Below, in pieces: positions 9,336 through 52,356 of a DNA stretch of 64,000 nucleotides; positions within the stretch are counted from its first letter, which is position 1; each line of letters starts with the position of its first letter. The stretch lies in the NCBI GenBank assembly GCA_019634955.1, contig JAHCAK010000001.1:62001-126000 (forward strand), read 5' to 3'. The translations under genes were made by a program, and so were the position numbers. The DNA is from Burkholderiales bacterium. Lineage in GTDB: Bacteria; Pseudomonadota; Gammaproteobacteria; Burkholderiales; Usitatibacteraceae. The notes under the pieces were generated by a model. That model saw only the letters and a list, made by a program, of their open reading frames with translations. It did no database searches and was not told where the DNA came from.

Positions 9336-9411
<76 letters not shown>

Positions 9412-9426
9412 GGAATTCGCCAAGCG

Positions 9427-9456
9427 AAAACGCCGTGGGTCGCCCCACGGCGTTTT
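9427..9456. terminator. Bidirectional intrinsic terminator after tRNA-Thr
   Basis: A 13-bp stem, AAAACGCCGTGGG pairing with CCCACGGCGTTTT around a 4-nt loop, flanked by an A run on one side and a T run on the other. It can end the tRNA transcript rightward and the minus-strand lipoprotein transcript leftward. Confidence 0.8.
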
Positions 9457-9480
9457 CCGTTCCGGCGGCCGGCCGCCCGC

Positions 9481-49583: not shown

Positions 49584-49599
49584 GCGGCCCGCGGGCCGC
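49584..49599 (-). other. 16-nt palindrome between zapA and 6S RNA
   Basis: GCGGCCCGCGGGCCGC is a perfect palindrome that starts at the zapA stop codon. It could form a hairpin separating the zapA message from 6S RNA, perhaps a processing point; there is no T run. Confidence 0.4.
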
Positions 49600-49937
49600 T
49601 AGAAGAGCTTGTCCTGGTCGGCGGCGAGTGCCGCCTCCAGTGTTTCCTGCATGGCGAGGATTCTACGCCGATGCTCCGGTCCGTCAACGGAAGCGCCGCC
49701 CTTGCCGGGCTTCTGGTGCAGGTGCTCGTGCGCGATGTTGACCGCCGCGATGATGGCGAGGCGCTCGTTGCCCGAGAGCTTGCCGCCCTCGCGCAGGTCC
49801 TTGATGCGCTCGTTCAGGTAGTCGACGGAGGCGAGCAGCTGCTTCTCCTCGCCCTCGGGGCAGGCGAGGCGATAGTCGCGCCCGAGGATGTGGACGGAGA
49901 TCCCCCGGTCGCGCGCCCTGGACTCGTCGCCGCTCAC
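49599..49937 (-). CDS. zapA: Cell division protein ZapA
   Basis: A 112-residue cytoplasmic protein that bundles FtsZ filaments at the division site. The N-terminal part (ISVHILGRDYRLACPEGEEKQLLASVDYLNERI) is the ZapA signature, followed by NERLAIIAAVNIAHEHL and a helical tail. Its start overlaps the stop of the coiled-coil gene upstream by 4 nt. Confidence 0.92.
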   Translation of the reverse strand: MSGDESRARDRGISVHILGRDYRLACPEGEEKQLLASVDYLNERIKDLREGGKLSGNERLAIIAAVNIAHEHLHQKPGKGGASVDGPEHRRRILAMQETLEAALAADQDKLF

Positions 49938-50134
49938 GCCTCGGTCTCGGGAATCTGCTTGAGCAGCGCCTCGATGCGCGCCTTCGCGGCCGCGAGCTTC
50001 TCGGCCAGCCGCGCGTTCTCGTCGGCCTTGGCGGCCAGCTGCTGGCGAAGCTCGCGCCCCTCCTCGCGCAGCTTCTTCAACTGCGCGACGGCCTGCTCGA
50101 CCTTCGCCTCGAGGGCGGAAAGCTCCGGATCCAT
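49934..50134 (-). CDS. ZapB-like coiled-coil cell division protein
   Basis: A 66-residue protein that is almost entirely one coiled coil (heptad-like spacing from residue 4 to 58, rich in Ala, Glu, Leu, Lys). It is cotranscribed directly ahead of zapA, as are short TIGR02449/ZapB-like proteins in other proteobacteria. ZapB links ZapA rings to the chromosome terminus in E. coli; that role here is inferred from context and shape. A TTGACT (-35-like, 50164-50169, minus strand) lies upstream. Confidence 0.8.
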   Translation of the reverse strand: MDPELSALEAKVEQAVAQLKKLREEGRELRQQLAAKADENARLAEKLAAAKARIEALLKQIPETEA

Positions 50135-50163
50135 TCGCGAAGCCTATTGGAAAACCATTTCCC

Positions 50164-50169
50164 AGTCAA
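50164..50169 (-). promoter_or_regulatory. Putative -35 for zapB-zapA-ssrS
   Basis: TTGACT on the minus strand, followed 17 nt later by a weak TAGGCT close to the start codon. It could drive the zapB-zapA-6S unit. Confidence 0.35.
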
Positions 50170-50234
50170 TGCGTAAGCGCTTATTTTGAAAGTGATTTCG
50201 AATGTAACGGATGGCCTTTCGTCCTATCCGGGCG

Positions 50235-50240
50235 TATCAT
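50235..50240 (+). promoter_or_regulatory. Putative -10 for the btuB leader
   Basis: TATCAT just before the riboswitch, with a poor -35 (TGGCCT) at 17 nt. It would start the transcript close to the first riboswitch helix. Confidence 0.4.
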
Positions 50241-50247
50241 GGGCACC

Positions 50248-50392
50248 GCTTTCGGGTGCACGGGAAGCCGGTGAGAGACCGGCGCTGCCCCCGCAACGGT
50301 AAGCCAGTGGGGACCACCCTCCAGCCACTGCGGCCCTCGCGCCGCGGGAAGGCGGTGGTCAAGCCTGGCGAGCCCGGAGACCGGCCCGGAAG
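50248..50392 (+). promoter_or_regulatory. Cobalamin (AdoCbl) riboswitch
   Basis: The core elements occur in order: GGTGCACGGGAAGCCGGTG, then CCGGCGCTGCCCCCGCAACGG, a variable helix (AAGCCAGTGG with CCACTGCGG), GGGAAGGCGG, and the B12 box AGCCCGGAGACCGGCC. This family represses downstream genes when cobalamin is plentiful. It lies upstream of a BtuB-like receptor gene. The 52-nt palindrome that follows (50399-50450) separates it from the ribosome site. Confidence 0.92.
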
Positions 50393-50398
50393 CATGGT

Positions 50399-50450
50399 GG
50401 GGACAGGTTTCGGGGACGGTTCTTCAGAACCGTCCCCGAAACCTGTCCCC
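50399..50450. repeat. Perfect 52-nt palindrome between riboswitch and btuB
   Basis: Arms 50399-50423 and 50426-50450 are exact reverse complements (25 bp) around TC. The arm starts GGGGACAGGTTTCGGGG. It resembles palindromic REP-like repeats scattered in betaproteobacterial genomes, but that is from memory. In the mRNA it would form a very stable hairpin about 60 nt before the btuB start. No T run follows, so it is not a standard terminator. Confidence 0.88.
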
Positions 50451-50508
50451 GTGTTCGAACCTGTGGCCTGCGGGGACGCTGGCCACGCGGAACAGGAATC
50501 TCCATCCC

Positions 50509-52356
50509 ATGAAGACCATGCCCCTCGCCGGCCTCGCCGCCGCGATGGCGCTGGGCGCCCATGCCCAGCAAGCCTCTCCCGCCCCGACCCTCGCCTTCGC
50601 CCCCCTCGACGCCATCGTCGTCACCGCCGCCCGCACCCCCCAGAAGGCCTCCGAAGCCCTGCGCGACGTGACCGTGATCACGCGCGAGGCCATCGACCGC
50701 GCCGGGCCGATATCGCTGGCCGAGCTGCTGCAGCGCGAGGCCCTCGTCGAGTTCCGCGGCACCGGCGGCGCGGGCCAGCCGGCCGGCCTCTTCCTGCGCG
50801 GCGCCAACGCCGGGCACACGCTGGTGCTTGTCGACGGCCTGCGGGTGAGCTCGGCAACCGTGGGCACCACCTCGATCGAGAACCTGCCCCTCGACATGAT
50901 CGAGCGCATCGAGGTGGTGAAGGGGCCGCTGTCCAGCCTCTACGGCCCCGACGCCATCGGCGGCGTGGTGCAGATCTTCACGCGCGCTTCCGCCAAGCCG
51001 CGCTTCTTCGCCACCGGCGCCTACGGCACCGACGCCGACCGGATGGCGAGCGCCGGCTTCACCACGACCGAGCGCGACACCACGCTCTCGTTCGCCGCGG
51101 GCGCGCGCAAGGTGGACGCGCCCAGCGCCACCAACGCGCGCGCCTGGTGCCACGACCCGGACCGCGACCGCTACGAGAGCGCGTTCGCCAACGCGCAGGT
51201 CGTGACGCGCCCCTGGCCCGGCGAGACGATCACGCTCTCCGGCTTCGTGAGCGAGGGCAAGGCCCGCTTCGACGGCTGCCCGGACGCGCAGGGCCGCTTC
51301 GCCGACGACCGCAACGAGCAGACCCTCGCGGGCGCGCGGCTCTCGTCGTTCATGTTCTTCGCGCCGTGGTGGTCCAGCCGCTTCACGCTCGGCGAGGGCC
51401 GCGACGAGCTGCGCATCGAGGGCAGCGAGCCGCTGCGCTTCGAGACCCGCCAGACGCAGGCCTCCTGGGTGAACGAGTTCGGCACGAAGGTGGGCACGGC
51501 GATGGCCGGCCTCGAGACGGTGCGCCAGCAGGTGCTCTCGGGCGTGGCCTTCACGAAGACGCGCCGCGACACCAACTCGGCGTTCGTGGGCTTCAACGAG
51601 ACCTGGCGCGGCCAGCGGCTGGAGGTGTCCCTGCGCCGCGACGACGACGACCAGTTCGGCTCCCGCAACACCGGCACCGCGAGCTACGGCGTGCCCGTCC
51701 CGGGCGCGGGCTACCTCACCGCCACGGTCGGCCGCGGCTTTCGCGCGCCCACCTTCTACGACCTCTACGCCCCCGCCTCGGATTTCTACGTGCCGAACCC
51801 CGACCTGCGGCCCGAGAAGAGCCGCAGCCGCGAGCTGGGCCTGCGCGGCGAGCCCTTCGCCGGCTGGCAGGCGCGCGTGGCGGCCTACGACCACCGCATC
51901 GACGACCTCATCACCTACGTCTACCCCACGATGCAGAACGTGCGCCGCGCGCGCATCCGCGGCGCCGAGGCGGCCGTCGAGGGCACCGCGTGGTGGGGCG
52001 TGCGCGTGAAGGCCTCGCTCGCCGTGCAGCGCCCGCGCGACGAGGACACGGGCTACCGCCTGCAGGGCCGCGCGCAGCGCTTCGGCCGCGTGGAAGCCTC
52101 CCGCGCCTTCGGCAAGTGGTCGGTCGCGGCCGGCGTCACCGCGAGCGGCGAGCGCTTCGACTCTCCCGACGAGTCGCCGGCCATGCGCCTGCCGGGCTAC
52201 GCCATCGCCGACGCGCGCCTCTCGTGGGCGGCGGCCAAGGGTTGGCGCGTCGAGCTCGCCGCCACGAACCTCCTCGACAAGCGCTACGAGCACGTGATCG
52301 GCTACGACGCGCCCCGCCGGGGCGTGCTGCTGAGCGTGCGCTTCGAGGCCCCGTGA
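50509..52356 (+). CDS. btuB: TonB-dependent cobalamin receptor (BtuB-like)
   Basis: A 615-residue outer-membrane receptor with a signal peptide (end near AHAQQ, about residue 20), a TonB-box-like DAIVVTA (about 34-40), a plug domain (PISLAELLQREALVEFRGTGG, then GPLSSLYGPDAIGGVVQIFT) and a C-terminal beta-barrel ending LLSVRFEAP. Control by a cobalamin riboswitch and similarity to BtuB support uptake of corrinoids. No BtuCDF or cob genes lie nearby. The ribosome site (AGGAAT) is weak. Confidence 0.9.
   Translation: MKTMPLAGLAAAMALGAHAQQASPAPTLAFAPLDAIVVTAARTPQKASEALRDVTVITREAIDRAGPISLAELLQREALVEFRGTGGAGQPAGLFLRGANAGHTLVLVDGLRVSSATVGTTSIENLPLDMIERIEVVKGPLSSLYGPDAIGGVVQIFTRASAKPRFFATGAYGTDADRMASAGFTTTERDTTLSFAAGARKVDAPSATNARAWCHDPDRDRYESAFANAQVVTRPWPGETITLSGFVSEGKARFDGCPDAQGRFADDRNEQTLAGARLSSFMFFAPWWSSRFTLGEGRDELRIEGSEPLRFETRQTQASWVNEFGTKVGTAMAGLETVRQQVLSGVAFTKTRRDTNSAFVGFNETWRGQRLEVSLRRDDDDQFGSRNTGTASYGVPVPGAGYLTATVGRGFRAPTFYDLYAPASDFYVPNPDLRPEKSRSRELGLRGEPFAGWQARVAAYDHRIDDLITYVYPTMQNVRRARIRGAEAAVEGTAWWGVRVKASLAVQRPRDEDTGYRLQGRAQRFGRVEASRAFGKWSVAAGVTASGERFDSPDESPAMRLPGYAIADARLSWAAAKGWRVELAATNLLDKRYEHVIGYDAPRRGVLLSVRFEAP

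Follow-up and report, generated by a model that had tools for sequence, protein, structure and literature searches.

A perfect 52-nt palindrome lies between a cobalamin riboswitch and the btuB-like gene that the riboswitch would be expected to control. The question raised by this locus is whether the palindrome has cut the aptamer off from its expression platform, has itself become the platform, or has been accommodated in a leader that still responds to cobalamin. All positions given here are coordinates of the window, the 64-kb stretch of DNA that was analysed, and the genome from which the window was taken (3.86 Mb in 90 contigs, about 96 % complete) is labelled G000. The features of the leader and its neighbours are listed in Table 1.

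Table 1. Features of the btuB leader and adjoining genes in the window
Feature	Position	Strand	Evidence or remark
zapA-like gene across the intergenic region, reading away from btuB	49599–49937	-	PF05164, 70.2 bits
Cobalamin riboswitch aptamer, RF00174	50237–50403	+	cmscan 91 bits, E 3.2e-21, model 1–189 complete
L5 loop in the aptamer, CCCCCGC, expected to pair with L13	50288–50294	+	Read from the sequence; CTGCCCCCGCAAC string in 26/26 loci
B12-box segment CCGGAGACCGGCC, used to mark the limit of the linker on the aptamer side	50374–50386	+	Read from the sequence; served as search pattern
52-nt perfect palindrome, REP/REPIN-type dispersed repeat	50399–50450	.	Core 50412–50437
P13/L13 hairpin GTGGCC-TGCGGGGACGCT-GGCCAC, expression platform	50463–50486	+	L13 GCGGGG at 50470–50475; 26/27 family riboswitches
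Probable Shine-Dalgarno AGGA	50494–50497	+	Inferred by sequence inspection
btuB-like TonB-dependent vitamin B12 receptor gene, 615 aa	50509–52356	+	ATG 50509; Plug and beta-barrel Pfam domains

The palindrome reported in the preliminary description was confirmed, with an RF00174 aptamer on its 5' side and a btuB-like gene on its 3' side. Its arms (50399–50423 and 50426–50450) are 25 nt each, 100 % complementary and separated by 2 nt. The window contained 28 inverted repeats of at least 16 nt and, among the 25 that were listed, this pair alone was fully complementary. It also formed the longest perfect hairpin found in the window, the others (arms of at least 11 nt and loops of at most 12 nt, over the 64 kb) having arms of 14, 11 and 11 nt. 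Elsewhere in the window, a 14-bp perfect hairpin at 9426–9457 starts 18 nt past the end of the tRNA gene at 9336–9408 and is possibly the terminator of that gene.

The aptamer scored 91 bits against a gathering score of 31.5, and no second RF00174 match was found in the genome. Pairing in the model ends at 50396, which places the start of the palindrome 3 nt beyond it, and the unpaired 3' tail of the model overlaps the first 5 nt of the palindrome. The best NCBIfam match of the receptor was the vitamin B12 receptor family TIGR01779 (408 bits, E 7e-122), below the cut-off of 599.7 for that family. The aptamer thus lies upstream of a B12-related (BtuB-like) gene, as is expected for this riboswitch class.

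Folded alone, the palindrome gave −51.9 kcal/mol, compared with −23.6 kcal/mol for the 65 nt behind it. In the predicted fold its arms paired with each other and with neither the ribosome site nor P13, and its pair probability of 0.984, like that of P13 given below, was calculated without the L5–L13 pairing, a kissing loop that ViennaRNA folding cannot represent. No intrinsic terminator (stem-loop followed by a U-run) was found in 50100–50560; the palindrome itself was rejected as a terminator because it lacks a U-run.

The palindrome belongs to a dispersed family. Its core, GGGGACGGTTC-N4-GAACCGTCCCC, was found at 19 places on 15 contigs of the genome (17 exact and two with one mismatch), and the reversed core, used as a control in the same genome, at none. 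In 14 of the 19 places (counted by eye) the core is framed at a distance of 6 nt by GGGACA and TGTCCC heads, one to either side, with a spacer that was variable and sometimes paired; the window copy pairs over its whole 25 bp. Each arm comprises two GGGGAC units and the two arms are inverted, which amounts to the layout of a REPIN. The palindrome is most likely a copy of a dispersed, non-autonomous repeat of the REP/REPIN type, probably a mobile one. The earlier suggestion that a mobile REP-type palindrome had been inserted between aptamer and gene is supported by the 19 core places, by congeners that have no palindrome, or another repeat, in the same position, and by RAYT-like genes in this genome and in a congener.

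The REP-associated tyrosine transposase (RAYT) to which the preliminary description had pointed as a possible companion was traced only in part. The genome encodes two Y1_Tnp genes whose sole NCBIfam match was to this transposase, with 46.3 and 76.4 bits where the cut-off is 80, and neither was flanked by the window's own repeat; the repeats beside them (GACCGGTTCCG, GGGGACGTACCC) are related to the window repeat but different. Tandem and inverted GGGGACGTACCC and GACCGGTTCCG units surround these RAYT-like loci (L002 and L001), and the two kinds of unit look like dialects of one repeat style. A RAYT in the congener G005 was 59 % identical to the first of the two genes and 53 % identical to the second. 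A palindrome of the GGGACGGTTCTGTAGAACCGTCCC kind (a GGGACGGTTC palindrome) stands at either side of this gene, and the downstream copy runs into the end of the reading frame; the copies beside this gene carry GTAG next to their stems. Several composite palindromes that mix GGGACGGTTC with ACCGGTTCC units, with GTAG between the stems, were seen within 3.3 kb around one RAYT gene of G005 (L093, contig C14). Another RAYT, in G006, has a GGGGTCAGGTTACTTTG palindrome at each end. Judged from these sequences, RAYT-driven mobility of the window copy is plausible.

The stretch between the palindrome and the ATG contains a conserved hairpin, P13/L13, that the preliminary description had overlooked. 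It begins 12 nt behind the palindrome, and its L13 is the exact complement of L5 CCCCGC at 50289–50294. When 28 genomes of the family were searched with RF00174, 26 were positive, with 27 matches, and a hairpin with the loop TGCGGGGACGC was present downstream of the aptamer in 26 of the 27, the exception being a second riboswitch in G005. This second riboswitch (L031, contig C107) is without a GCGGGG P13 hairpin; its box is separated from an ATG by no more than about 60 nt, and another reading frame follows. It probably uses another platform. Reading frames were compared behind 14 of the riboswitches and all 14 aligned as BtuB-like, the 13 others being 45–79 % identical to that of the window.

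The P13 stem is supported by covariation: all 104 cells of its four pairs, taken from 26 distinct rows, were standard, and 23 of them were double-changed, compared with no more than 12 in any of 1000 column shuffles and no more than four in four slid controls. The predicted pair probability of P13 was 0.999, whether the palindrome was included or left out. The L5 and L13 strings were nearly invariant across the leaders, leaving their pairing without covariation support. With regard to the ribosome site, inspection revealed only a weak 3-bp GGA/TCC pairing possibility. In other corrinoid riboswitches the L5–L13 kissing loop stabilizes P13, which promotes a hairpin at the RBS (PMC10653944).

The spacing on the two sides of L13 differed greatly among the 26 leaders. 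The distance from L13 to the start codon had a mean of 35.7 nt (sd 3.6), start calls that include one mechanical TTG at 22 (G017), where an ATG lies at 34, whilst that from the B12 box to L13 had a mean of 80.2 nt (sd 26.4, range 25–141). The near constancy of the former and the variability of the latter indicate that the platform is anchored to the gene and that the linker on the aptamer side is free to vary. In the window, P13/L13 is intact and lies at the usual distance from the start. The earlier observation that the B12 box lies more than 110 nt from the start codon holds (122 nt in the window), but the spacing is not unusual, since it ranged from 59 to 180 nt across the 26 leaders and was at least 103 nt in 21 of them.

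Linkers at the same position were compared among relatives. Within the genus (eight genomes), a palindrome of a dispersed repeat was present in the linker of four (G000, G001, G004 and G005), representing at least two repeat families. The G001 linker carries a GGTGTCAGGTTACTTTT palindrome, the arm of which had 7 + 4 strand matches in that genome at up to two mismatches, two of these being the linker's own. In G004 a GGGGACGGTTCC core, with 56 copies in the genome, is located at the tip of a native stem, and in G005 the palindrome is long and composite, with arms that cover 85 nt; similar arms (one to three mismatches) were found elsewhere in G005 and in G002. Only short native stems were present in the linkers of G002, G003, G006 and G007. 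G000, G004 and G005 share a core family, and the independence of their insertions rests on the tree, on their different arms and on their different loops.

In the BtuB tree, G001/G006 and G002/G005 formed sister pairs with 97 % identical BtuB, and in each pair one member has the repeat. Between G006 (without the repeat) and G001 (with it), the aptamer was 98 % identical and P13 plus gene 95 %; between G002 (without) and G005 (with), the corresponding values were 95 and 96 %. Each pair thus sets a leader carrying the repeat against a closely related one free of it, a difference to which loss in the sister may also have led. The window copy has no such close empty site: its BtuB was 79 % identical to those of the nearest relatives, G002 and G005, and its linker aligned with that of G007 at 73 %. 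In another genus of the family, the G024 linker contains GTCATTCCCGCGTAGGCGGGAATCCAG, which belongs to a third repeat family and is one of 42 strand matches in G024 at up to three mismatches.

Conservation of the same palindrome in distant relatives would, as the preliminary description had it, mark an ancient platform and not an insertion. The palindrome was not found at this spot in the other leaders among the 26, which have different repeats or none, so that the position appears to have been reused by different repeats. The possibility that every linker palindrome is mobile was ruled out by the leader L030 of G008, where a 13-bp perfect palindrome is single-copy in its genome; from its sequence this is a native or decayed hairpin of repeat-like size. 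Long near-palindromic stretches were also noted on the upstream side of the riboswitch at L038 and L032 (G010 and G011; GTTCGTCCTGAGCTTGTCGAAGGAC type and CCCCGGACTCGTTCCGGGG type).

A survey of the wider order gave RF00174 matches in 337 of 399 genomes. Ninety aptamers were inspected (30 loci and 60 top matches, a selection biased to high scores), of which 84 had the box pattern and 51 of these 84 a GCGGGG P13-like hairpin within 300 nt. For the 51 that have this comparable P13, the linker had a median length of 36 nt when the P13 stem was taken as its end. Hairpin scores in the linkers of the 84 did not exceed 12. The hairpins at 11–12 (L123, L125, L154 and L158) are as long as the bare REP core, and repeats may therefore also occur in other families of the order.

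Taken together, the linker is most likely a tolerant, repeatedly hit site at which cobalamin control survives. For the window copy, we consider it probable that the repeat landed in a naturally variable aptamer–P13 linker, that it folds on itself and that cobalamin control through L5–L13 was kept. A repeat of the REP/REPIN type would have inserted into the linker that joins the cobalamin aptamer to a kissing-loop platform, and in the mRNA it would self-fold into a rod of 24–25 bp, lengthening the linker and exposing no new unpaired sequence. With cobalamin bound, L5 would still kiss L13, P13 would be stabilized beside the ribosome site and translation of btuB would be lowered, as in other corrinoid riboswitches. 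The aptamer–P13 joint would tolerate hairpins of very different sequence, and it may be because of this tolerance that different repeat families have gathered in the linkers of the family. We infer from this arrangement that regulation by cobalamin has been retained, and any benefit of the hairpin would be of the same inferred kind.

A broader reading is that mobile REP/REPIN hairpins serve as interchangeable riboswitch parts. Unrelated selfish palindromes would then land at the joint again and again and be taken on as spacer stems, with transposition supplying RNA architecture; we regard this as doubtful. The unpaired length of the folded linkers was no smaller than in dinucleotide shuffles (26 linkers), so a need for the hairpin to hold the geometry gets no support. 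The mean fold z of the 22 linkers that exclude the four genus repeats (the G024 repeat being included) was −1.46.

The number of repeats in these linkers was compared with chance expectation. The calculation took copy numbers from 12 genomes, set the linker at 62 nt and distributed the copies uniformly over the noncoding share, assumed to be 5–12 %. Outside G000, the ascertaining genome, 0.045–0.109 linker copies were expected and four were seen (G001, G004, G005 and G024; P about 2e-7 to 5e-6, or 0.001 to 0.0055 if only two insertions were independent), an estimate in which some families had their strand matches counted double (making the expectation higher), the G005 composite family was left out and the three repeat families are known because of their presence in linkers. 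About 372 kb of genus sequence contained 11 perfect hairpins (arms of at least 11 nt, loops of at most 12 nt), three of them in these linkers and the other eight all of at most 14 bp, in a scan that misses long-looped and composite repeats such as that of G005.

This enrichment over a uniform expectation would also be produced if the joint were simply a hot target, the transposase of the repeats preferring a hairpin loop or a single-stranded stretch and function playing no part. In G001, G004 and G005 the repeat is located at the tip of the linker stem, and flanking stems around the G004 copies were mildly in excess, with stems of at least 6 bp in 11 of 43 copies (null 13.2 %, 5.7 expected) and of at least 7 bp in six of 43 (null 5.6 %, 2.4 expected). 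However, stems of at least 9 bp flanked only two of the 43, one of which is the btuB linker site itself, making tips at most a weak target, and one and the same preference would have to be shared by three repeat families that differ in sequence. We judge a hot target unlikely. For the general proposition that REPs insert at hairpin tips, 43 of the 56 G004 copies gave no more than a weak indication, and the flanking stems in G000 were mostly the repeat's own heads.

It is less likely still that the insertion uncoupled the riboswitch, such that the aptamer still binds its ligand, cannot act on btuB and leaves the gene constitutive in this strain. The insertion is large and begins 3 nt behind the paired part of the aptamer model, the added GGGGAC stretches could compete with L13 for L5 during transcription of the arm, and the event could be too recent for decay to be visible. 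Nevertheless, box-to-L13 linkers of 82–141 nt with L5 and P13 occur both with and without repeats, and the aptamers of the four genus carriers scored 91–99.9 bits, inside the genus range of 87.9–99.9, with standard P13 pairs. The aptamer of G024 is weaker (61 bits), yet so is that of its repeat-free congener G023 (58.2). The earlier proposal that the repeat had split aptamer from platform is thus literally correct, but loss of control is not indicated, as the linker is naturally variable and both kissing-loop partners are kept.

A further explanation is that the hairpin is kept for an added role in the mRNA, either as a barrier to 3'-5' decay or by making RNA polymerase pause during folding of the aptamer. 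Transcription of many REPs is plausible, and they may act at the RNA level (PMC3733652); a site behind the aptamer and ahead of P13 would suit a pause. On the other hand, four of the eight genus genomes have only short native stems in the linker, and such a role seems improbable to us.

Recruitment of the palindrome as the platform, in which cobalamin binding would govern formation of the 25-bp hairpin and so hide or expose the ribosome site, can be given very little credence, since this palindrome, very stable alone and lying in the mRNA between aptamer and start as it does, is so stable that switching is unlikely, is predicted to pair with itself, lacks a terminator tail, is absent or different in congeners, and is followed by a P13/L13 that covaries across 26 leaders, 21 of them without a palindrome proven to be a dispersed repeat.

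On the reading that we favour, a tolerated insertion with control through L5–L13 retained, these leaders are of use beyond this locus. Corrinoid riboswitches signal to the gene by a kissing loop across a linker, and the family offers a natural series of linkers before related genes, with 25–141 nt from box to L13 and with a bare linker, a native stem or one of three kinds of dispersed palindrome in between. The series lends itself directly to testing what distance, and what kind of intervening structure, may part the two halves of a riboswitch. It also provides an example of a 5' leader position that repeats have occupied on more than one occasion.

Both components are of known kinds. With the kissing-loop corrinoid riboswitches of Escherichia coli btuB and P. 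megaterium metE (PMC10653944, PMC9600662), the locus has in common the RF00174 aptamer, an L5 of CCCCCGC and a P13 with a complementary G-rich loop upstream of the start, here of a btuB-like gene. It differs from them in the long linker between aptamer and P13 with its mobile-type palindrome, and regulation is presumed here. Like the REPIN, a hairpin formed by a REP doublet (PMC3116915), the repeat is a short inverted doublet that is dispersed in a genome with RAYT-like genes; here there are only 19 copies, the RAYT with GGGACGGTTC palindromes sits in a congener and a cognate RAYT is putative. The REPs tagged by GTAG or CGTC (PMC3733652) are likewise palindromic and dispersed, and GTAG stands beside the stems near the congener's RAYT, whereas the window copy has TTCA in its loop and, on inspection, no unpaired GTAG or CGTC tag next to it.

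Searches of the open-licence literature yielded no description of a REP or MITE at the junction of a riboswitch aptamer with its platform, and a single precedent for a repeat within a riboswitch leader. This nearest case is the pneumococcal BOX element located between two T-box riboswitches upstream of trp, a leader that its authors considered still able to regulate (PMC3049150). The two cases have in common a dispersed repeat inside a riboswitch leader. BOX separates two whole riboswitches, whereas the repeat described here lies inside one, at the joint between aptamer and platform, a site that has been reused by several repeat families.
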